A stretch of 64,000 nt of DNA from a virus. The stretch spans positions 1 through 64,000 of IMG/VR virus record IMGVR_UViG_3300042445_001170; one strand, given 5' to 3'. Numbering within the stretch: the first letter of the stretch is position 1; each line of letters begins with the position of its first letter. Shown here piece after piece: positions 3,929-40,704 of the stretch. A program made the translations under genes and the position numbers. The notes beneath the pieces were generated by a model, which saw only the letters and a program-made list of their open reading frames with translations, ran no database searches and had not been told where the DNA came from.

Positions 3929-6142
3929 CTAGTATTGTATATAAATATCTCCAGCAACCATGCCAGTAGTAGGTAGTGTGCCAGTATTATTATAGAATGT
4001 TTTTGCACCAGCAGAAATTGTTGCAGTTCCACCAAGTGAGACTGGTGTGCCATTAATTGTTATGCTTGAATTAGCAAGCTTAGCGTTAGTTATAGAAGAG
4101 TCTGCAAAAGATGATGCCTGAAGGTTTGTTATTGTATTATTTAATCCAGATATTGTCTTATTGGTTAATGTTTGTTCCCAGGACTCATTAATAATTTCTA
4201 GCTCTGTTCCGCCAAATACTTTTTTATGATACAGTCTTCCGCTTGTTGGGTTAACCGATATTTCTGCATATCCGTTTGTACCAGACCCTAAATGGAATCT
4301 ATTTCCAACATTGTATAAAGAACCTGCACTAAAACTGCCTTCAAGTACTGTTCCAGAAAGATCTGCCCATGAGGCAACTGTGCCATTTGTTGTTAAATAT
4401 TTGCCAGTATTATTTAATTGTGTTGGAAGTGCTGTTATTCCAGTTACTGTTGCACCAGAAAAATCTACTGTTCCAGTAAATACTGGTGAGGCTTTTGTTG
4501 CATAAGTTGATGCTGCGACTGATGTAGCCAATTTAGTGTCTAATGCTGTTTGGGTTGCAGTAGATATAGGTTTTAATAGATCTGTTGTATTGTCAACATT
4601 TCCTAAGCCAACCATTGTCTTTGTAATGCCACTCACTGTACCAGTAAATGTAGGTGAAGAAATTGGAGCATATGTTGATGCTGCGTCTGTTGAAGAAAGC
4701 TTAGTTCCTACTAATGTTGTTAACGCTGTTCCTGCTGTTTGATCTGAGGCAATATAATCTGAAATTTCCTTAAGTGTATCAAATGAGGCTGGTGCTGCAT
4801 TTACAACATTTGCTATAGCTGCTGTTATATCTGATGTTCTTGCAATTGTAGAAGGTATAACTGAGTCTAGAATTGTTCCGCTTGACACTCCAAGTCTTGC
4901 ATATCCTCCTGCCAAATCTGCGTCTGCCTCCATCACATATCCGTCTAATGTGTTTCCAAGACTAGATGATGTTAAATAAGTAGAATTTGCATATGTTAAC
5001 AGGTCGTCTGTTGCTTGATTTAAATTAACATAAACATCTGTGAATCTTTGGTTTGTTGCAGCTAGTGCTCGTGCGTCTGTAAAATAAAGATTTGTTGTGC
5101 CTTCTGATACTGCGTCTGTGTTTCCAGAAAAAGTTGAGCCTCCACCTGAGCCATCTGCTCCACGAGGAATAGTAAAGTTTAAAACAGCTGCTGAGGTTGT
5201 GCCAGCATTTGTAACTACTGCTGAGGAGCCAGCGGCTCCAGTTGTAACTGTTCCAATAGATATTGTTGCTGCAGAACCAGGCGCTCCAGTTGCTCCTGTT
5301 GCTCCTGTTGATCCTGTTGGGCCTGTTGGGCCAGTGTCTCCTGTGTCGCCTTTTAATCCTTGTGGTCCTGTTGCACCTGTAGCACCAGTTGCACCACGGG
5401 GGATAGTAAAATTAAATACTGCTGCTGTTGGGGTTCCAGAATTTACAATCGAAACAGAAGAGTCTGCATCTCCAGTTAAAACAGATCCCAATGTTATTGT
5501 TGAAGATCCTCCACCTGAAGATAAGCCTGACACTGCTGTAGAAATTGCATTATTTCTGTTTGTAACCTCTGTAGCAATTTTTGCATCAGTATATGAATTT
5601 ACAGATACTGTATTTGACTGTATAGCTGTATTAAGTTCTGCTTTAGCTGCGATAACTTTTGCGGAAGCATCGTCTGATGCTGCTGAAATTGCTTGAGCTT
5701 TTGCAGTTGCGATTGCAGTTGTAGTGGTAGCTGCCTGTGTTGCAATTGCATTGTTTCTATTTATTATTTCTGTTGCAATAGCTGAGGATATTGCAAGGGC
5801 GGCAGCGTCTATTGCCCTTTGATCTGTAAAATATTTATTTGTTGATCCTTCTGCAATTGAATTTGTAGTCAATGCAGCAATTGCTCCATTTAAATCAACG
5901 GAGGCAGAAATAGAGTCTGGAAGCTGTGATGTAGGAATTTTTCCGCTGGAGTTAAGTGTTGCCACTCCATTTGCTTCGCCTAACTTTAATGCATATGAGG
6001 TTGTGGAATTCCATCTAGAGCCGTTGCCAATTTTAAATTTTAGAGTGTCTGTTTCAATTCCCAATTCGCCAGAAAGCAAAATAGGGTTATTTGATACCCA
6101 ATTTGCCGCTGTGTCTCTTCTTAGTTGTATTCTTAATGCCAT
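3929..6142 (-). CDS. tail fibre with collagen-like repeats
   Basis: 737 residues from the ATG at 6142 (MALRIQLRRDTAANW). I prefer this start to the longer frame because GGGGG lies 10 nt upstream and the preceding gene stops just before it. The N-terminus resembles the Mtd-type fibre N-terminal domain found in many phages. A run of 13 Gly-X-Y triplets (GATGATGATGPQG... ...GAPG), encoded near 5279-5400, is collagen-like and flanked by two copies of NFTIPRGA. Long Ala/Ser/Thr coiled-coil and beta segments follow. A trimeric fibre is likely. Confidence 0.8.
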   Translation of the reverse strand: MALRIQLRRDTAANWVSNNPILLSGELGIETDTLKFKIGNGSRWNSTTSYALKLGEANGVATLNSSGKIPTSQLPDSISASVDLNGAIAALTTNSIAEGSTNKYFTDQRAIDAAALAISSAIATEIINRNNAIATQAATTTTAIATAKAQAISAASDDASAKVIAAKAELNTAIQSNTVSVNSYTDAKIATEVTNRNNAISTAVSGLSSGGGSSTITLGSVLTGDADSSVSIVNSGTPTAAVFNFTIPRGATGATGATGPQGLKGDTGDTGPTGPTGSTGATGATGAPGSAATISIGTVTTGAAGSSAVVTNAGTTSAAVLNFTIPRGADGSGGGSTFSGNTDAVSEGTTNLYFTDARALAATNQRFTDVYVNLNQATDDLLTYANSTYLTSSSLGNTLDGYVMEADADLAGGYARLGVSSGTILDSVIPSTIARTSDITAAIANVVNAAPASFDTLKEISDYIASDQTAGTALTTLVGTKLSSTDAASTYAPISSPTFTGTVSGITKTMVGLGNVDNTTDLLKPISTATQTALDTKLATSVAASTYATKASPVFTGTVDFSGATVTGITALPTQLNNTGKYLTTNGTVASWADLSGTVLEGSFSAGSLYNVGNRFHLGSGTNGYAEISVNPTSGRLYHKKVFGGTELEIINESWEQTLTNKTISGLNNTITNLQASSFADSSITNAKLANSSITINGTPVSLGGTATISAGAKTFYNNTGTLPTTGMVAGDIYIQY

Positions 6143-6143
6143 T

Positions 6144-6602
6144 TTATGAACCCCCTGCATCAACAATTATACCATCGATGTCTGCAGAGTTACCTCCCTC
6201 TAGAATTTGATCTTCTGCTTGCTGTATTTGTCCTTCAACGTTTCCGCCATCAAGTAATGTTTGGTCTGTTATAGATCCGCCATCATTTAGAGATGAAGCA
6301 GTTTGACCATCATAGCCAACTATGATAGGCAGAGTAACTCCTGGTGTGTCTTGAACGTTTGTTTCTTTAAATGTAATCTTGTTTTGTACATCAATTGTAT
6401 GTACATCTCCATCAAATGTATGGGTGTGCATATAGAATGGAGTTGGATCTGTGCTGGGTGGGGTCAATTCAACCCAAAGCAGTCCATTATATATTCTTAA
6501 GTTCTTCGTTACCGTATTAAAATAGATATCTCCAACTGTGGCTACGTCTGGATTCTCCATTGAGGTAAGAAGATTAAGGGCAACCTTCATCTGTCTGGAC
6601 AT
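6144..6602 (-). CDS. structural protein of the fibre cluster
   Basis: 152 residues. The N-terminus (MKVALNLLTSMENPDVATVGDIYF) shares the 'GDIYFNT..KNLRIYNG..W' pattern with its neighbour at 6607-7578, a motif typical of phage fibre modules. The C-terminal third is Gly/Asp/Gln-rich and repetitive (DGGNVEGQ..). It ends one base before the downstream fibre start. Virion component by context. Confidence 0.6.
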   Translation of the reverse strand: MSRQMKVALNLLTSMENPDVATVGDIYFNTVTKNLRIYNGLLWVELTPPSTDPTPFYMHTHTFDGDVHTIDVQNKITFKETNVQDTPGVTLPIIVGYDGQTASSLNDGGSITDQTLLDGGNVEGQIQQAEDQILEGGNSADIDGIIVDAGGS

Positions 6603-11949: not shown

Positions 11950-12138
11950 ATGGAAAAAGAAAAAGTAGTACTTTTAATGCTTGAAAAATTAAATAACGAT
12001 ACAAGATTTGCTGGTGTGTCCAGCGGTGCAGATATTGCAGATGTTGAACAGCAGATTATTAAGAACCAGCCATTTTTGCAATGGCAGATGAACAACATGT
12101 ATGACACACTTGTTGAAAAAGGCGTAATTATTCCTTGA
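11950..12138 (+). CDS. small hypothetical protein
   Basis: 62 residues, helical, ending just before a perfect promoter. Starts 1 nt after the upstream stop with AGGAAG as ribosome site. No recognised domain. Confidence 0.55.
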   Translation: MEKEKVVLLMLEKLNNDTRFAGVSSGADIADVEQQIIKNQPFLQWQMNNMYDTLVEKGVIIP

Positions 12139-12163
12139 CATTGAATCTTTATTAACTTATAAT
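12135..12163 (+). promoter_or_regulatory. consensus sigma70 promoter for a small RNA
   Basis: TTGACA (12135-12140), exactly 17 nt, TATAAT (12158-12163): a perfect match to both hexamers, the strongest canonical promoter in the window. Confidence 0.85.
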
Positions 12164-12169
12164 AAAGTG

Positions 12170-12233
12170 TTGGTTGAGACTCGTCTCCCAATGGTAAAGC
12201 CCCCTTTTGGATCCGCCTCCATAGGGGGTTTTT
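12170..12233 (+). ncRNA. candidate phage small RNA (about 65 nt)
   Basis: Bounded by the perfect promoter just upstream and by a terminator hairpin CCCCCT/AGGGGG followed by TTTTT (12200-12233). It contains an imperfect GAGA/TCTC stem at 12176-12187 and no start codon with a useful reading frame. Not a tRNA and not a match to the actinobacterial 6C RNA as far as I can see. Confidence 0.6.
12197..12233 (+). terminator. rho-independent terminator of the small RNA
   Basis: Six-base-pair G/C stem CCCCCT...AGGGGG and a TTTTT tail. Confidence 0.75.
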
Positions 12234-12261
12234 ACGTGTCTGGTGGTATAATAATATTAAT

Positions 12262-12420
12262 ATGGCAAGGGATCATTTTTCACAAGCATCTAAGAATCCT
12301 AGGTATCAGAGTAGATTTTATACTCACGGGGAATCTAAAGAGTTCATGTCAGAAAGAAAGATTGAATTATTTTTCTCAAAAATATTTTCTAAATTAAAAA
12401 GAATAGTTGGTAAAAAGTAA
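12262..12420 (+). CDS. small basic protein
   Basis: 52 residues, strongly basic C-terminus (KLKRIVGKK). A TATAAT stands 9 nt upstream of the ATG, so the message may be leaderless. Its stop shares one base with the next gene's ATG (TAATG). Function unknown; possibly nucleic-acid binding. Confidence 0.5.
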   Translation: MARDHFSQASKNPRYQSRFYTHGESKEFMSERKIELFFSKIFSKLKRIVGKK

Positions 12421-13244
12421 TGTTTACAGACAATCCAAAGGTAGAACAAGTTGCAGAACAGGTCTGGATTTACAGAGGATTCATAACCCCAGAAGAAAAT
12501 GAAAATATCATGCGTTTAATGAGAGAGCATGAAGCTGCTTACAAAGATTCAAAAGATGCGTTTGTATTTAAAGATCAGTATATAGACTGGTACAAGGACA
12601 AGACTGGCCCATCAATGCCTGAGCTAAAACCAATATGGGACAGACTTTCAATGATGCTTTATCCAGAACACTACATTCATCCACAGCTATTTGTAAACGT
12701 AATGCGTCCTGGCGATGAAGGAATGTTTGTGCATGCTGATAGTCCAGGAATGAATATGGAGCATGACCTAACTCAGCTAGACAGATGGTCAACTTGCTGC
12801 AGATTAAGCCATGGAGTGGTTGCTTATATGGGAGACTACGAAGGCGGAGAAATATTTTATCCAAATATTGAAGCAGATGGAAGAATTAAAGATAGACCAG
12901 GAGATCCTGATGATTGCTTGCAGGTAGACGTAAGACCTGGAGATGTAGCAATCCATGGAGCAACTCATCCCTGGGAACATGGAGTAAGGAAAATAACAAG
13001 TGGGATTAGATTTGCATACTCTAACTTCTGCATGGAAAAGGAACACGCTCCAGGAACATACGAGCTATTTGATCCAGCCAAACATCCGTTTATGACAGAT
13101 CCAAAAGAAATCATAAACTGGAACAACACTGTTTATCCTGAAACAACTTTCTGCAAAAAGAAATGTATATGCGGGGACTCTGCTGACTTTCCTTATTGCG
13201 ACAACACTCATAAAGAAGTAAATAAACTTAAATATAAGAAGTAA
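12420..13244 (+). CDS. 2OG-Fe(II) oxygenase fused to a CDGSH iron-sulfur domain
   Basis: 274 residues. The first ~210 form a prolyl-4-hydroxylase-like double-stranded beta helix: H105 and D107 (FVHAD), H187 (PWEHGV) as iron ligands and R197 for 2-oxoglutarate. Residues 249-264 read CICGDSADFPYCDNTH, the CDGSH pattern C-x-C-x2-S-x3-P-x-C-D-x2-H that binds a 2Fe-2S cluster (C249, C251, C260, H264). Known for the families: hydroxylation of peptides or small molecules, and redox-active cluster. The fusion is unusual and suggests oxygen or redox sensing, or electron supply. Substrate unknown. Confidence 0.85.
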   Translation: MFTDNPKVEQVAEQVWIYRGFITPEENENIMRLMREHEAAYKDSKDAFVFKDQYIDWYKDKTGPSMPELKPIWDRLSMMLYPEHYIHPQLFVNVMRPGDEGMFVHADSPGMNMEHDLTQLDRWSTCCRLSHGVVAYMGDYEGGEIFYPNIEADGRIKDRPGDPDDCLQVDVRPGDVAIHGATHPWEHGVRKITSGIRFAYSNFCMEKEHAPGTYELFDPAKHPFMTDPKEIINWNNTVYPETTFCKKKCICGDSADFPYCDNTHKEVNKLKYKK

Positions 13245-13388: not shown

Positions 13389-14066
13389 ATGGCTTACAAG
13401 TCCTTTTATTATTTACAGATACCTAAAACAGGATCTAAATACTTCCTAAGCAACATGTACTCGCCATTGAAAGATGAGTTTAATAAACATGGCATTGAAT
13501 TTCTTAATATGTGGGATCAATATAGCAATCCTTTAATTATGGGGTGGCATCCAGAGATAGATAAAGATACATATGTAGCATCAACATTTAGAGATCCAGT
13601 AAAACAAATAGTCAGCAAGTATTGTGATCAATTTAAGTCAGCTAACAAATCAGAAACAAAATATTATAGCAATGATCTTCCAGATAAAGAAGCATTTATG
13701 CAGAATGTAAATCTATATGCCAACAATATGTCTAGATATCTAATTAGTCATTCAGATGTATATGGTAAAGATATATTGCAGTCAACTGAAATTAATATTA
13801 ATAGTGCAGTGCGGCGAAGTAAGAGAGTCAATAAATTCATATTAGAATCAACTAACCCAAATGACACAATGCAAAGTATATTACAGGATATGGATCTACC
13901 TGTTCCAAGTCACCTTGAAAAGGGTAAAGTCAACCATAAGATCAATGTAAACAATAGCTCTAGACTTTTATATGAGTCTTTGACCGCTGAAGAAGTTGAA
14001 GCAATTAGATCTATATCTGATATTGATGAGTATATATATAACTATGCAAAGGGATTAGATTCTTGA
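13389..14066 (+). CDS. sulfotransferase-family protein
   Basis: 225 residues. IPKTGS at 11-16 is the 5'-phosphosulfate-binding loop and STFRDPVKQIVSKY around 65-78 is the 3'-phosphate-binding segment of PAPS-dependent sulfotransferases. The remainder is helical with no known acceptor motif. It follows the oxygenase-CDGSH gene and faces further oxygenases, so it may act in the same modification pathway. The acceptor could be a host surface polymer, a virion protein or a small molecule; unknown. Confidence 0.75.
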   Translation: MAYKSFYYLQIPKTGSKYFLSNMYSPLKDEFNKHGIEFLNMWDQYSNPLIMGWHPEIDKDTYVASTFRDPVKQIVSKYCDQFKSANKSETKYYSNDLPDKEAFMQNVNLYANNMSRYLISHSDVYGKDILQSTEININSAVRRSKRVNKFILESTNPNDTMQSILQDMDLPVPSHLEKGKVNHKINVNNSSRLLYESLTAEEVEAIRSISDIDEYIYNYAKGLDS

Positions 14067-14499: not shown

Positions 14500-15402
14500 C
14501 TAGTCAACTGCTTTAATTACACAAGTTATCTGATTTGGATTGCCACCATTACCAATTTCTTCTTTGGAATTAAATACTCTACACTGCCATATAAATTTAT
14601 CAAAAGATTCTTTTTCTTTTTCTTTAAGCAATGCTTCAAATTCTTCTTCTGACATAGAATTTTTCATATCAATAAAATCCTCTTTAAACATGGCTGTAAG
14701 GAATTGACGAACATAAAATTTATTACCGACAACTGGCATTACTGCATGATATAAGTCTGTTCTAAACAATAAGCCATCTCCTGCTTCCATCTTATACGTA
14801 ATAGGAGGATCTATCATGAGACACTTCTGCTCATTTCCGTCAGCATCTATATATGTAGACTCTTCGCCACTTTCTGTATCAATTAAAACAATTTCTCCAC
14901 CTTCATAGTCATCATTAGTGTAGATGTTAAAATTGAAAATATGTGGAGTTCCTCCAAACCATGGTCTTCTATCCTGGTGGTACTCCATTGAAAGCTTAAG
15001 CTTTTTGTCAGTGTTTTCTGATTCAAGTATCACAACATCAGCTGTACAGTAATTTGGATTAAACCTTGCTTCTTCCATAGATGTTGGAATATCTGAGCTC
15101 TCGCCAATTAAATCAAAGTAGTCTTGATTAAGATAATTTTCTTTGTATATTTTTATTGCATCCCAAAATATATCTAGGAACTCTCTTAGATAAACTCCGC
15201 CTTCATTTCTACAAACTTCGTAAGATGGATCAGTCCATGGATATGCTTTTGAATACTGTCCCCATGGTCTCCAGTCTTGCCATTGTCCAAACCATTGATC
15301 GTTATTTGTCTTGGAGCGAATAACAAAATCTTGTGTCGCTGCTGGGTCCTTTAAAACATTCTTAAAAAGTATTACATCTTTTGTTAAAAGCCTATGTTCC
15401 AT
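14500..15402 (-). CDS. 2OG-Fe(II) oxygenase
   Basis: 300 residues. Iron triad H142, D144 (YHQD) and H219 (DLYHA), with R232 positioned for 2-oxoglutarate. The core (about 115-240) has the DYEGGEI strand typical of prolyl-hydroxylase-like proteins. N-terminal ~100 residues are Trp-rich and C-terminal 60 are charged; both are unusual extensions that may bind the substrate. Neighbour of an SGNH-like gene and a third oxygenase. Confidence 0.85.
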   Translation of the reverse strand: MEHRLLTKDVILFKNVLKDPAATQDFVIRSKTNNDQWFGQWQDWRPWGQYSKAYPWTDPSYEVCRNEGGVYLREFLDIFWDAIKIYKENYLNQDYFDLIGESSDIPTSMEEARFNPNYCTADVVILESENTDKKLKLSMEYHQDRRPWFGGTPHIFNFNIYTNDDYEGGEIVLIDTESGEESTYIDADGNEQKCLMIDPPITYKMEAGDGLLFRTDLYHAVMPVVGNKFYVRQFLTAMFKEDFIDMKNSMSEEEFEALLKEKEKESFDKFIWQCRVFNSKEEIGNGGNPNQITCVIKAVD

Positions 15403-15438: not shown

Positions 15439-16113
15439 TTATATCACCACAGCTTTGCTTTCTTGTACTGCAACTTCAATGAACATATCGTACAGGTTTT
15501 GTGTTAATTCTTGGTTTAGTCCATCGACATCATGGCCTTTTGTTTTGTCACTAGAATCCAGGGTAAGTTCTTTAAGCCCCAATGCATCAAATATCTCTTT
15601 TTGAGTGATTACTCTTAGCCCAAGGGCCGAACCATACTCGTTTAGTGCGGCGCAAAATTCATTATTTTGCTGAAGACGTTCATCATAGGAGTATTCATCT
15701 ACTTCTTCCCAATACGGAATAATGTTCTCTTTAAACTGAGGATGTGGCTCTGCAAGTATCATCTGCGAGTTTGGAAAATATTGAATTAAAAAATCAACAT
15801 AGCGTTTGACACATTCAGCAGCATTTTTGTATTTAGGCAGTAGGTACTTTATGTCAATGTATCCAAACCAGGCTATTACTATGCCATCATCTTGGATTTC
15901 TGACCATCCTACTCTTCCCCCCTTTGGTTTTGGAGTTTCCATTAGTGAAGAGTATCGATTCATTTTTAAAAGATCGTATGGATTAAATTTCCAAGCTGAG
16001 TGTCCACCTTTACCCCAAGCTTTTAATTCAACTCTTGTTTCTTTATCAGTATAATGTTCAAATATTCTAGTTGACTGACAATCACCTATTAGGTATAATT
16101 TTTTAGATATCAC
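15439..16113 (-). CDS. SGNH/GDSL-hydrolase-like protein, nucleophile altered
   Basis: 224 residues. LIGDCQS at 8-14 aligns with block I (GDS) but has Cys in place of the usual Ser. Other shared pieces with the paralogue at 52691-53437: W-x-GYIDI(K/R), the (A/M)EP-x-PQF segment and a C-terminal helix. Family members act as esterases on acyl groups of glycans or lipids; this copy may use Cys, or be a binding protein. Located between two oxygenase genes. Confidence 0.65.
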   Translation of the reverse strand: MISKKLYLIGDCQSTRIFEHYTDKETRVELKAWGKGGHSAWKFNPYDLLKMNRYSSLMETPKPKGGRVGWSEIQDDGIVIAWFGYIDIKYLLPKYKNAAECVKRYVDFLIQYFPNSQMILAEPHPQFKENIIPYWEEVDEYSYDERLQQNNEFCAALNEYGSALGLRVITQKEIFDALGLKELTLDSSDKTKGHDVDGLNQELTQNLYDMFIEVAVQESKAVVI

Positions 16114-16222: not shown

Positions 16223-16921
16223 CTAGCTTAGCTTTAAATTCTTATCCTCAATAAAGTAATCTCTTCTCCAGGCTTTTCCAATGTCAGTATTTAGCCAATC
16301 AGTCGCAGTATAAATACTATTAATAGTTTTTGCAGACTCTTCATGAGCTCTATTAGATACTGCAATGCAGCTGTTTTCTTTACCTGATTTATTTGTAGGA
16401 TCAATAGGCAAATCTCTATCGTATAAGCTGAATGTGATGGTTCTCTTATTGTCAGTAGTTACAGGTGTAGCTCCATGTGGACATGAAGCAGCATGGATGA
16501 GAAGATCTCCCTTATGTGGCTTTACCGTCAAATTTTCTTCTGGGTAAAATACAATTCCGCCGTCCTCATTTGTTTCTGATAGGTATATAACAGCAGACCA
16601 TACTTTTGTATAAGGAGTTTCATCATCGGCTTCATTATCTCTATGTATACCAAACCATGTGTTTGCAGGAGTGTGCCAATGCAAGAAGTATTTTAGTTCC
16701 CAATTAAGATCTTTAAAAATTTCCTTTGCTTTGTCTTGTATTCCGTTATCTATTGCCGCCCCCAGAACTTCAATCTTGTCATAAGGCCTTACTTCTTTTT
16801 CGTCGTTATTAGATGAATACTCTGATGCCTTAAATGCTTCGTCAGCTGTTTCGTTGTCTAAAAATCCACGCCAAATATAAGAATGGTCACTTATTTTTTC
16901 AAAATTAGTAGTATCAAACAT
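16223..16921 (-). CDS. 2OG-Fe(II) oxygenase
   Basis: 232 residues. H93 and D95 (GIHRD), H149 (CPHGATP) and R160 (KRTITF) form the metal and co-substrate sites, with the EDGGIVFYP strand before the distal His. P4H-like fold. First gene of a three-gene minus-strand group (this gene, the SGNH-like gene and the 300-residue oxygenase). Confidence 0.85.
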   Translation of the reverse strand: MFDTTNFEKISDHSYIWRGFLDNETADEAFKASEYSSNNDEKEVRPYDKIEVLGAAIDNGIQDKAKEIFKDLNWELKYFLHWHTPANTWFGIHRDNEADDETPYTKVWSAVIYLSETNEDGGIVFYPEENLTVKPHKGDLLIHAASCPHGATPVTTDNKRTITFSLYDRDLPIDPTNKSGKENSCIAVSNRAHEESAKTINSIYTATDWLNTDIGKAWRRDYFIEDKNLKLS

Positions 16922-32666: not shown

Positions 32667-32897
32667 TTAAGCTTCAGGTGAAGGAGTCGGACCTTCGTTA
32701 TCAGGTTCGGAACCTGGAGTACTGCCGTTATACGAACCTGAAATATTCTTCGGAATAATTCGCTTAATCTCGTAGCAACAGTCTGGGCATTCGCCCTTAT
32801 ACAACCAATTACCTGAATCTAAGACAACCATTTCGGTCAATCTGCCTGAAACATTTTTCTTGCATAGAACACAAAATGCGTCCAGCTTTATAGTCAT
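32667..32897 (-). CDS. small zinc-ribbon protein with Pro/Gly tail
   Basis: 76 residues: CVLCKKN near 9 and CPDCCYE near 38 form a zinc ribbon (DUF5679-like spacing); the last 20 residues are a flexible G/P/S/E tail. Confidence 0.6.
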   Translation of the reverse strand: MTIKLDAFCVLCKKNVSGRLTEMVVLDSGNWLYKGECPDCCYEIKRIIPKNISGSYNGSTPGSEPDNEGPTPSPEA

Positions 32898-33028
32898 TCT
32901 TCTAGAAGATGTTCATTTTCTTTAAAAGCTTTTAGAATAGCTTCTCTAAGCTTATCATTCTTTAGTGCATTATGTGTACCATTACATTCTGGATACGCAT
33001 CTGATAAGCCACATTTACATAGCGCCAT
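32894..33028 (-). CDS. mini CDGSH iron-sulfur protein
   Basis: 44 residues. CKCGLSDAYPECNGTH at 4-19 fits C-x-C-x2-S-x3-P-x-C-x-G-x-H, the CDGSH 2Fe-2S motif with Asp replaced by Asn. Only a short helix follows, so this is close to the minimal domain. Overlaps both neighbours by a few bases. Probably a redox or iron-sulfur carrier; one of three CDGSH domains in the window. Confidence 0.75.
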   Translation of the reverse strand: MALCKCGLSDAYPECNGTHNALKNDKLREAILKAFKENEHLLEE

Positions 33029-36399: not shown

Positions 36400-36492
36400 C
36401 TACTTGTTGCCCCTTAATTTCTTATACTCTTTAATAAAAGCAACTATGGTCACTATCAATACAAACACACACATAATAAAATAAAGGATCAT
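36400..36492 (-). CDS. tiny membrane peptide
   Basis: 30 residues, one helix then a basic tail (KEYKKLRGNK). ATGA overlap with the oxygenase upstream. Confidence 0.45.
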   Translation of the reverse strand: MILYFIMCVFVLIVTIVAFIKEYKKLRGNK

Positions 36493-37100
36493 AGGAATTC
36501 ACCAGTAAAATTAACATTTGCGCTTAATCTAAATTGAGATGTATGGGGGTAGCTCCAACTATGAAACCTATCTGAGTAGAAAATGGCGCATGCTCCAGCT
36601 TTAGGGTGTATCTCTTTAATTATACTAAGATCTTCTACCGTTGTCTTTTTGCCATCGTACATCTTGTTGTAAAGGGTTGTAGGGCCTTCTGAGTCATTGA
36701 TATAGTACATGAAAGAGAACCCTCCGAACCTTCCATTAAGGTCTGTATGGATGGGAAGAGTCCTTTGATCGCTATTTTTTACTGTTAGGTTGACTCTTAC
36801 TCTTAAAAATTTATCAACACGAATCTTATACTTATCTGCAAAGGCATTCAATATCTCTGATAAGATAGGGGTAGATAGACTTGGCATTCCTAGAATTGAC
36901 TTATCTCCAAGAAGTATCAATCCATCCTGTGTTTGATCGGTATCTATACCAGATAGTCCATCAGTTTCTGCCCCAACAGTTTCCTGCATATAGTAGGGCA
37001 TATTCATAAATATTTTTTTATATTTCTCTATTTGTTCTTTGCTAAATATGTCTTCATCATAGATATACCCTGGGTCTACCAAAAGGTGTTCGTTGCTCAT
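36489..37100 (-). CDS. 2OG-Fe(II) oxygenase
   Basis: 203 residues. H118 and D120 (IHTD), H180 or H186 (RFHSWSYPH) and R191 (FRLSANV). Short version of the P4H-like fold. Substrate unknown. Confidence 0.85.
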   Translation of the reverse strand: MSNEHLLVDPGYIYDEDIFSKEQIEKYKKIFMNMPYYMQETVGAETDGLSGIDTDQTQDGLILLGDKSILGMPSLSTPILSEILNAFADKYKIRVDKFLRVRVNLTVKNSDQRTLPIHTDLNGRFGGFSFMYYINDSEGPTTLYNKMYDGKKTTVEDLSIIKEIHPKAGACAIFYSDRFHSWSYPHTSQFRLSANVNFTGEFL

Positions 37101-37504: not shown

Positions 37505-37648
37505 TTAAACTGCTAATTCCCTTGGTAACATTATTTCGCATTTGTCACAGTAATCATAAATAGATCCAGTGTACGGACATTGCCCAGCTTCAATTAAATT
37601 ATGCCCATTAAAATAACATTTAATTCTGTTAAAGTAATGACTAATCAT
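37505..37648 (-). CDS. small Cys-containing protein
   Basis: 47 residues from MISHYFNRIKCYF, with CPYTGSIYDYCDKC. Start overlaps the end of the CDGSH gene. Confidence 0.55.
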   Translation of the reverse strand: MISHYFNRIKCYFNGHNLIEAGQCPYTGSIYDYCDKCEIMLPRELAV

Positions 37649-37772
37649 CTTGCTTTTCTTTATCCCAAGGCGGAGGTTCAACTGGAGGTCTGCCGTGTGA
37701 CCCATCGCATACTGGATAGGACAAAGACCTACCGCATTGACACATTACTACTGCTGGATATTTGGTAGCCAT
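37641..37772 (-). CDS. CDGSH iron-sulfur protein in the ahp operon
   Basis: 43 residues. MCQCGRSLSYPVCDGSH at 10-26 is an exact CDGSH motif. Ligands C11, C13, C22 and H26. A proline-rich acidic tail follows. Starts on the stop of ahpD (TAATG), so the three redox genes are coupled. Likely a small 2Fe-2S redox partner. Confidence 0.85.
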   Translation of the reverse strand: MATKYPAVVMCQCGRSLSYPVCDGSHGRPPVEPPPWDKEKQDD

Positions 37773-38284
37773 TATGCTGAAAGTATCTTTGATAAAGCGT
37801 TAATTGTTGCAGATATTCTACCGATATCTCTTAACTGCTCCACTGTGTACCCCTCTTCTTTTAATGTCTCATAATGTGCTTTTACACAAAAATGACACTT
37901 TCCTATAATAGATGAGGCTAGCGAGTAGGCTTCAAACTTTGCCTTTGTAGTTCCGCCATGAGTTGCAATAGCATTCATTCTTAGCTGTGCTGGCAATCCT
38001 TTAAGATTTGCATCGTCTGCCATTTCTATAAATGGATACCAAACATTATTTTGTGCCATGATTGCGCCAGCAGTAAGGGCTGCATTTTTTTCAACTTCGT
38101 CCGTTGCATTTGCAACAATAAAAGTTAGCAACTTAGAATTGCCAGTAGAAAAAGCAGCAGCTATTGAAAGATACAATGCATGTTCTGGATCAATAGTTGA
38201 TCTGTTTATCACAGCATCAAGATTTAATCTAATATCTTTTGCATACTCTGGAAGATTTTCGTTTAGCTGTCCTACCCAAGACAT
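37772..38284 (-). CDS. ahpD: alkyl hydroperoxidase AhpD-like
   Basis: 170 residues. E118, C130, C133 and H137 (ECxxCxxxH layout; KCHFCVKAH) coincide with the mycobacterial AhpD active site. AhpD reduces AhpC and has weak peroxidase activity. Directly downstream of ahpC with overlapping ends. Confidence 0.92.
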   Translation of the reverse strand: MSWVGQLNENLPEYAKDIRLNLDAVINRSTIDPEHALYLSIAAAFSTGNSKLLTFIVANATDEVEKNAALTAGAIMAQNNVWYPFIEMADDANLKGLPAQLRMNAIATHGGTTKAKFEAYSLASSIIGKCHFCVKAHYETLKEEGYTVEQLRDIGRISATINALSKILSA

Positions 38285-38820
38285 TATAGCGTTTCTCCGC
38301 CAAGAGGTCTATTGCATGCACAAAGCTCACCAGTTTGGAGGGCATCTAGAACACGCAATGCTTCTCCTGCATTACGACCTACATCTAAGTTGTTGCATGT
38401 TACATGCTGAATAATGTTATCTGGATCTATAATAAATGTTGCACGGTATGTGACGCCAGATGAGTGATGTACTCCTAGATCGTTTGCTAAAGCGTGTGAT
38501 GTGTCTGCAAAAGACCATGAGTTAGTTTTCTTAAGATCTTCATGGGCATTTCTCCATGCAATTTTGCAGAACTCATTGTCCACTGATCCAGTCATAAGCA
38601 CTGCATCTCTGTCATTAAAGTCATTTACTAATGCATCGTAGGCAACAATTTCTGTTGGGCAAACAAATGTAAAATCTTTTGGATAGAAAGCAATGATCTT
38701 CCATTTTCCTGGGAATGAGTCTTGTGTCAACACTTCAAATGAGCTATCTTCATAAGATAAAGCCCCTGGCTTAACTCCAGTTACTGCGAAGTTGCCTAAT
38801 TTCTCTCCTACTGTTTTCAT
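38284..38820 (-). CDS. ahpC: peroxiredoxin AhpC
   Basis: 178 residues. Peroxidatic C54 in FVCPTEI, C-terminal CAC (C167, C169) for resolution. Actinobacterial-type AhpC that reduces hydroperoxides. First main gene of ahpC-ahpD-CDGSH; it likely protects the infected host cell from oxidants. Rare in phages. Confidence 0.92.
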   Translation of the reverse strand: MKTVGEKLGNFAVTGVKPGALSYEDSSFEVLTQDSFPGKWKIIAFYPKDFTFVCPTEIVAYDALVNDFNDRDAVLMTGSVDNEFCKIAWRNAHEDLKKTNSWSFADTSHALANDLGVHHSSGVTYRATFIIDPDNIIQHVTCNNLDVGRNAGEALRVLDALQTGELCACNRPLGGETL

Positions 38821-39658: not shown

Positions 39659-40453
39659 CTACTCGTTGCTATTTTCCCAGCCATACCATGGCTTTACTCC
39701 ACTATCAGATTTATTGTCCAAGACTATGCCCTTTGAGACAGATTCCTCTAGCATTTCTTTTGTTATTTCCACTTCTGTTTCATACATTGGCCTTACTCTA
39801 GGCCTCATCTTGTCCCGCTCATGATAAAGGAATGAAATCATATTAATTCTTTCGCCAGACTCAACTTTTTTTACTCCATGTGGTAGGCTGTAGTCGCCTT
39901 CAAAAAAGACTAAGGTTCCTGTTTTTGGCTTATATTCAAAATCTTGGAATGGGAAAAACAGCTCCCCACCAGTATACTCTTCATTTAAATATAAAAGTGC
40001 CGCTCTATCTTCGTATTCATGCTCTCTTATTTTAAGCCCGCCTTCTGAATCAACATAGTGGTTGTCCATGTGAAGCTTATTTTCTGCTCCTGGCTTCATG
40101 TGACTATAAAACATGCTTTTTGCAACAAATGGAGTTCCATAGAAATCTGAAACCGCTTTAACCATTGAAACCGATATCAATTGAAATAGATCTAGGCTTA
40201 AATCATATGCTGGGTCACCAGTATATTTAGAAACATATTCGTATGGGGTAACGGCATTTCCAGACAATCCGCCAGATATATATTGATTATGCGGTGTCAC
40301 TGTAAGGTATTGATTTTGTATTGCTGTTAGCATTTTTGCTGTATGTGGTGATATAAAGTTTTCAACAACATGTATTTTATCAAAATAAGTTTTTACTTCT
40401 TTAAAGTAATATCTATCTGGGTCCTCAAGAAAAGGTCTATCTTGATCTAACAT
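39659..40453 (-). CDS. 2OG-Fe(II) oxygenase
   Basis: 264 residues from MLDQDRPFLED, preceded by GAGGAA; a longer start would overlap the upstream gene. H128 and D130 (KLHMDNH), H192 (LPHGV), R202 (ERINM), with YTGGELFFP between. P4H-like. Substrate unknown. Confidence 0.87.
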   Translation of the reverse strand: MLDQDRPFLEDPDRYYFKEVKTYFDKIHVVENFISPHTAKMLTAIQNQYLTVTPHNQYISGGLSGNAVTPYEYVSKYTGDPAYDLSLDLFQLISVSMVKAVSDFYGTPFVAKSMFYSHMKPGAENKLHMDNHYVDSEGGLKIREHEYEDRAALLYLNEEYTGGELFFPFQDFEYKPKTGTLVFFEGDYSLPHGVKKVESGERINMISFLYHERDKMRPRVRPMYETEVEITKEMLEESVSKGIVLDNKSDSGVKPWYGWENSNE

Positions 40454-40455
40454 AT

Positions 40456-40704
40456 TTATTCCTCTATCTGTGCCCATGGCGTTGCTCTATGCATGCCAGA
40501 ATATTTACAAGGGCAAGCAATTCTGAATGGCCCTTCGAACTTAAGTCTTGTTTTAATATCAATTTGAGTTAAGCAGTCTGGACATATAAAAGTTGCAGAT
40601 ATCCAGTGCCCAGCTATCGGGTTATTTTCTTCTGTTTCTTTTTTATACTTTTCGTTTAGTTCAACTGCTAGCTTAACTTGACTTTCAAGACTATCTTTTT
40701 TCAA
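40456..40704 (-). CDS. zinc-binding-type protein (TTG start)
   Basis: 82 residues: helical start, CPDC and CPCKYS. The TTG start overlaps the upstream stop; function unknown. Confidence 0.55.
   Translation of the reverse strand: MKKDSLESQVKLAVELNEKYKKETEENNPIAGHWISATFICPDCLTQIDIKTRLKFEGPFRIACPCKYSGMHRATPWAQIEE

Follow-up and report, generated by a model that had tools for sequence, protein, structure and literature searches.

The window, the whole 64,000-nt stretch of DNA that was analysed, encodes a phage 2OG-Fe(II) oxygenase of predicted prolyl 4-hydroxylase (P4H) fold that carries a minimal CDGSH-type module at its C-terminus. The pair of domains is conserved within its family, recurs in viral contigs in several arrangements, and occurs both as fused frames and as separate adjoining genes. 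We propose, at a probability of roughly 40%, that the protein exemplifies a recurrent viral theme in which the module serves the iron of the oxygenase. The gene and its parts are as follows:

12420-13244, + strand: fusion gene, 274 aa, prolyl-hydroxylase-like 2OG-Fe(II) oxygenase with a C-terminal CDGSH-type module (ORF, conservation, profile, model)
12420-13064, + strand: 2OG oxygenase core, ~residues 1-215, with iron ligands H105, D107 and H187 and putative 2OG-binding R197 (alignment, model)
13161-13214, + strand: CDGSH-type module, residues 248-265, with C249, C251, C260 and H264; reads CDNTH (Pfam, conservation)

Core and module of the fusion protein

Against the 2OG families of Pfam the fusion protein scored at best E 0.08, short of the gathering score, and PF13640 was reached at E 0.01 by 7 of 26 aligned sequences (the fusion and relatives of 32-99% identity). 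A 2OG profile built without the fusion family matched the protein at E 2.5e-13 in a one-sequence search. A first AlphaFold model, made from 9 alignment rows, had a pLDDT of 58.6, and its best 50 PDB rows were all 2OG enzymes; a second model from 26 rows reached a pLDDT of 77.8 and a pTM of 0.80, with prolyl 4-hydroxylases as its best solved matches (Z 13.9). H105, D107, H187 and R197 are invariant in all 26 aligned sequences; R197, a basic residue ~10 residues after the distal histidine, is a putative 2OG contact. Weak by Pfam but clear by modelled fold, the core is a P4H-like 2OG-Fe(II) oxygenase with a double-stranded beta-helix, which bears out the prolyl-hydroxylase-like core that the sequence-only reading had built around these four residues.

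That reading had also placed a CDGSH motif with all its ligands after the core. The module, CICGDSADFPYCDNTH, does hold all four ligands in CDGSH spacing (C-x-C-x8-C-x3-H), but it reads CDNTH, with asparagine replacing glycine at position 15. Pfam zf-CDGSH matched residues 248-265 at E 2.5e-5 and 24.9 bits, below the gathering cut-off of 29.5 bits, over profile positions 31-48 of 48, and CDGSH matches in a PDB sequence search were weak (E 0.57 and 0.27). A CDGSH-type DNA pattern occurred once in the 64,000 nt, as compared to none in 100 shuffles.

Two overlapping searches of viral contigs recovered the fusion family at 24 and 38 loci, with 68-99% identity; at one of these (L060) the gene is interrupted by the contig end. 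The eight named residues of core and module are invariant in every one of the 23 distinct full-length proteins of the family, and their codons vary synonymously at each site. The sequence-only reading had staked itself on conservation of the C-terminal residues, and these held: CxCGxSxxxPxCDNTH is retained in 88 of 88 readable family ORFs (a redundant set), and S7, P11, D14 and T16 of the module are kept in all 23 distinct proteins. Within the family, pN/pS is 0.068 in the module, 0.121 in the core, 0.256 in the linker and 0.398 in the tail; the seven residues just before the module are invariant (pN/pS 0), and the module is next lowest in the protein. These data indicate very strong purifying selection on the module.

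The conservation of the fusion across many samples rules out coincidence or an assembly error as its source. Genome contigs gave no sign of a cellular origin for it: 160 stretches matched a pattern and none encoded a relative. A narrower phage-type motif matched two stretches of cellular genome contigs; we take one of these to encode a tandem-motif protein and the other a ferredoxin-like/DUF1271-type protein. Cellular fusions with other 2OG families may nevertheless exist. Of 15 loci compared, 13 have a lysozyme-like gene and small ORFs upstream of the fusion. At 12135-12234 (+ strand) of the window, a perfect sigma-70-like promoter (12/12) precedes a 67-nt element that includes a terminator hairpin. 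Promoter and element precede the fusion in 12 distinct sequences, with an invariant loop (GGATCCGCCTC) and slight covariation; the element is possibly a small RNA or an attenuator.

As defined in the portions of PMC3174974 covered, a CDGSH domain comprises a 17-residue module together with an N-strand, a P motif and a beta-sandwich, all of which the module is said to require (PMC3174974). The fusion module has the ligands C2, C4, C13 and H17 as well as S/T7, P11, D14 and S/T/A16. At position 15, a universally conserved glycine in CDGSH domains, all 23 family proteins have N262; among the matches listed, 87 viral modules have G (64), N (19), E (2) or S (2) there. Position 1, a hydrophobic residue that ends the N-strand, is K248 in the fusion, no P motif (GP-Phi-X-Phi) lies near the module, and the family members were scored as bare. 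In the second AlphaFold model (a monomer), residues 247-274, with the CDGSH part, have low confidence (pLDDT <50). Among the matches listed, 80 of the 87 non-redundant viral modules are bare, with neither a P nor a tandem motif, and in 50 of these 80 the motif is preceded by no more than 12 residues. Mostly lacking a recognisable P motif, and often too short for an N-strand, these modules are not canonical CDGSH domains; judged by sequence, the viral module is a bare CDGSH-type module and not a member of CDGSH types 1-7.

The same missing elements, together with the stated need for a beta-sandwich, would favour a module that holds no [2Fe-2S] cluster and is instead a knuckle around zinc or mononuclear iron that would mediate contacts to a substrate, to a partner or within a dimer. 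We regard such a knuckle as unlikely, since the family keeps the cluster-geometry positions S7, P11, D14 and T16 throughout, beyond what a generic Cys3His site needs.

CDGSH modules and 2OG oxygenases in viral contigs

A search for the fusion in viral contigs, as the sequence-only reading had proposed, revealed that the pairing recurs in many phages. A broad CDGSH DNA pattern found at least 116 motif places, at least 87 of them non-redundant. A narrower CDNTH pattern, which unlike the broad one is biased towards the fusion family, found 83 stretches; the 80 listed as loci comprise 36 of the fusion family, 18 N-terminal CDGSH-2OG fusions, 6 N-terminal CDGSH-JmjC-like fusions and 20 others. Among the matches listed, at the loci newly added by the two scans (L061-L175 and L189-L234), all 35 distinct-context CDGSH frames of at least 180 aa are of 2OG (32) or JmjC-pattern (3) type. 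Pfam identified 2OG-FeII_Oxy_3 in five of seven representatives and JmjC_2 in two. The CDGSH position is C-terminal in the family of 12420-13244 and N-terminal in others. This repeated pairing in several arrangements suggests that the motif services the oxygenase; the sampled arrays are partly homologous, so independent events are fewer than these counts.

Where 2OG genes stand in tandem arrays, such as the six of L062 and the nine of L162, most mini-CDGSH motifs begin 4-13 nt after a 2OG gene. A 39-aa mini-CDGSH gene of L062 shares 4 nt with the 2OG gene on each side; the product of the 2OG gene after it matches residues 26-284 of a fused CDGSH-2OG frame (L134) at 87% identity. The window enzyme's unfused relatives, the best of them at 34-47% identity, end before the module; in L174 a mini-CDGSH comes after one of them (40.5% identity), in the order of the window fusion. 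When the CDGSH label is mapped onto a tree of 58 2OG rows, 7 changes are needed, of which starred branches force at least 5; the tree is a quick one with long branches, on which gains are not distinguishable from losses.

We compared the immediate neighbours of CDGSH places with those of other genes. At the 60 CDGSH places with a close upstream neighbour (27 of 87 among the matches listed have none), that neighbour is a 2OG gene in 25, as compared to 116 of 1009 other genes at the same loci (Fisher 1.3e-8); set against 116 of the 671 genes in 2OG-bearing loci, the value is 2.5e-5. The 25 places form 12 clusters of the upstream gene. By distance, 22 of 71 unfused CDGSH modules lie within 500 bp of a 2OG gene, against a random mean of 16.4 (16 of 500 random sets as high), and 28 and 33 of 71 do so at 1 and 2 kb (0 of 500 random sets as high). 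Because the excess at 500 bp is only mild, the immediate-neighbour test is the stronger one.

The converse comparison took query rows from CDGSH loci and scanned unfused relatives outside the CDGSH scans. A CDGSH module lies within 1.5 kb at 9 of 64 such loci (5 of 30 by clusters), and there is none at 55 of 64; density is 9 in 221 kb inside that distance vs 1 in 323 kb outside it (P 0.002, uncorrected for redundancy). The 55 loci indicate that the module is an optional partner and that the enzyme can do without it. Some viral CDGSH modules adjoin unrelated genes (AhpD, HIT-like and others). A mini-CDGSH directly follows one gene each in L068, L154 and L156, where the C-terminus of that gene is, judged by its motif, presumably HIT-family-like; in L067, L076 and relatives, a C-terminal CDGSH sits on a ~110-aa viral protein.

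The sequence-only reading had called the joining of the two folds unusual in a phage, and searches of cultured phages and of the literature agree with it. The fusion protein, a 24-kb piece of the window and a mini-CDGSH query (short queries being weak) had no match in cultured phages. An N-terminal CDGSH-2OG fusion matched 35 records, none covering 80% of the query, and none of the 20 matches listed began before query residue 60, so that only the 2OG part was matched. PHROGs and NCBIfam gave no family for the fusion, and the CDGSH/2OG pairing was not found in the portions of the open-licence literature searched; a term search of PMC5859297 gave 0 occurrences of phage, virus, fused, fusion and oxygenase.

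The window phage is tailed and 2OG-rich, with a terminase and 10 PF13640 places. Further oxygenase and mini-CDGSH genes are:

14500-15402, - strand: 2OG oxygenase gene near the fusion
16223-16921, - strand: 2OG oxygenase gene near the fusion
32894-33028, - strand: second stand-alone mini-CDGSH, 44 aa, CNGTH variant
36489-37100, - strand: 2OG oxygenase near the AhpC/AhpD/mini-CDGSH cassette
37641-37772, - strand: stand-alone mini-CDGSH, 43 aa, above the Pfam cut-off, start overlapping the AhpD stop by one base (Pfam, ORF)
37772-38284, - strand: AhpD-like alkylhydroperoxidase (CMD family)
38284-38820, - strand: AhpC-like peroxiredoxin
39659-40477, - strand: 2OG oxygenase near the same cassette

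The cassette runs AhpC, AhpD and 43-aa mini-CDGSH with stop/start overlap (37641-38820, - strand), and an AhpD-like gene, judged by shared C-terminal sequence, also precedes a mini-CDGSH in L083, L104, L107, L123 and L145. The CNGTH mini-CDGSH overlaps the ORF that follows it (32667-33028, - strand), which has a weak DUF5679 match (E 0.0077). The neighbours at 13389-14066 (+ strand) and 15439-16113 (- strand), presumably sulfotransferase-like and SGNH-like by their motifs, had no significant match in Pfam or NCBIfam. At 3929-6166 (- strand) lies a tail-fibre-like protein with a collagen-like Gly-X-Y stretch (phrog_1806), a candidate hydroxylase substrate. Eight records with fusion relatives have 11, 8, 7, 11, 14, 9, 1 and 1 PF13640 places (the two with a single place being 41 and 36 kb), and at least one CDGSH place each, with two or three in five of them. 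Outside the window, six clustered PF13640 places at 102331-107513 (- strand) of G000 are a tandem 2OG oxygenase array with no CDGSH place nearby.

Possible roles of the module

Our preferred explanation is that these modules serve 2OG-type oxygenases, fused at either end or encoded as overlapping or abutting mini-protein genes. The module would bind a [2Fe-2S] cluster, and the tethered cluster would keep the neighbouring mononuclear iron ferrous. The sequence-only reading had suggested that a labile cluster could either feed electrons in this way or sense redox state. In animal hydroxylases, ascorbate re-reduces the ferric enzyme. Here, the module would most likely take an electron from flavins or thiols and hand it to oxygenase that uncoupled turnover has left in the ferric state. 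MitoNEET, as described in the part of PMC9490426 covered, has a potential of ~-30 mV and accepts electrons from FMNH2 (PMC9490426), properties that could suit the re-reduction of a ferric oxygenase.

Alternatively, the module could be a metallochaperone that supplies the oxygenase, or other iron proteins of the phage, with Fe(II) or a cluster. Known CDGSH proteins have labile clusters, many iron enzymes are encoded by the window phage, as its PF13640 places attest, and stand-alone mini-CDGSH proteins exist; but a module permanently joined to a single enzyme is better placed to help that enzyme than to make deliveries, and we think chaperoning rather unlikely. Less probable still is a redox or oxygen sensor, in which oxygenase activity would be turned on or off as the cluster is lost or reduced: the peroxide-defence pair AhpC and AhpD precedes the coupled mini-CDGSH in the window, as a sensor might lead one to expect, but a single, specific allosteric contact is hard to square with repeated pairing to different 2OG families and at either terminus. 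Neutral hitchhiking, in which small genes are reshuffled within arrays and fuse by accident, would fit the relatedness of many sampled arrays and the 55 unfused relatives with no neighbouring CDGSH, but it is already disfavoured by the selection on the module, and the exclusively 2OG-type large CDGSH partners among the matches listed also make it very improbable.

A bolder form of the preferred explanation, which we hold to be possible but doubtful, is that bare ~20-residue CDGSH peptides are detachable plug-in [2Fe-2S] cofactors for 2OG oxygenases, acting in cis or in trans. If so, they would rank with the smallest iron-sulfur proteins, and they would let 2OG enzymes keep working in cells that lack ascorbate. 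To our knowledge, 2OG oxygenase upkeep in bacteria that lack ascorbate has been little studied, and the recurrent viral pairing would suggest that these enzymes have a redox or iron partner of their own. The fusion and mini-CDGSH proteins are small and directly expressible, and the mini-CDGSH proteins would offer a test of the minimal protein for a [2Fe-2S] cluster, as against the stated need for a beta-sandwich.

Comparison with known systems

Chlamydomonas P4H-1, Bacillus anthracis P4H, PHD2 and PBCV-1 vCPH resemble the fusion in predicted fold (Z 12.7-13.9) and share its HxD...H...R residues, at 8-19% sequence identity among the matches listed; unlike them, the fusion has an additional C-terminal CDGSH-type module. 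Rieske non-haem iron oxygenases offer a parallel to the proposed arrangement, with a [2Fe-2S] domain serving a mononuclear iron oxygenase site. The Rieske cluster, however, has Cys2His2 ligation in a different fold, whereas the fusion module has Cys3His spacing. Moreover, 2OG enzymes draw electrons from 2OG, so that the module would have at most a rescue role, unlike its Rieske counterpart.

Among CDGSH proteins, CISD types 1-7, as set out in the portions of PMC3174974 covered, share with the fusion three cysteines and one histidine in identical spacing, along with S7, P11, D14 and T16. The CDGSH fusions described there involve a glutamate synthase domain or DUF1271 and not 2OG enzymes (PMC3174974): types 5 and 7 are joined to these partners, whereas the module of the phage fusion sits on a 2OG enzyme instead.
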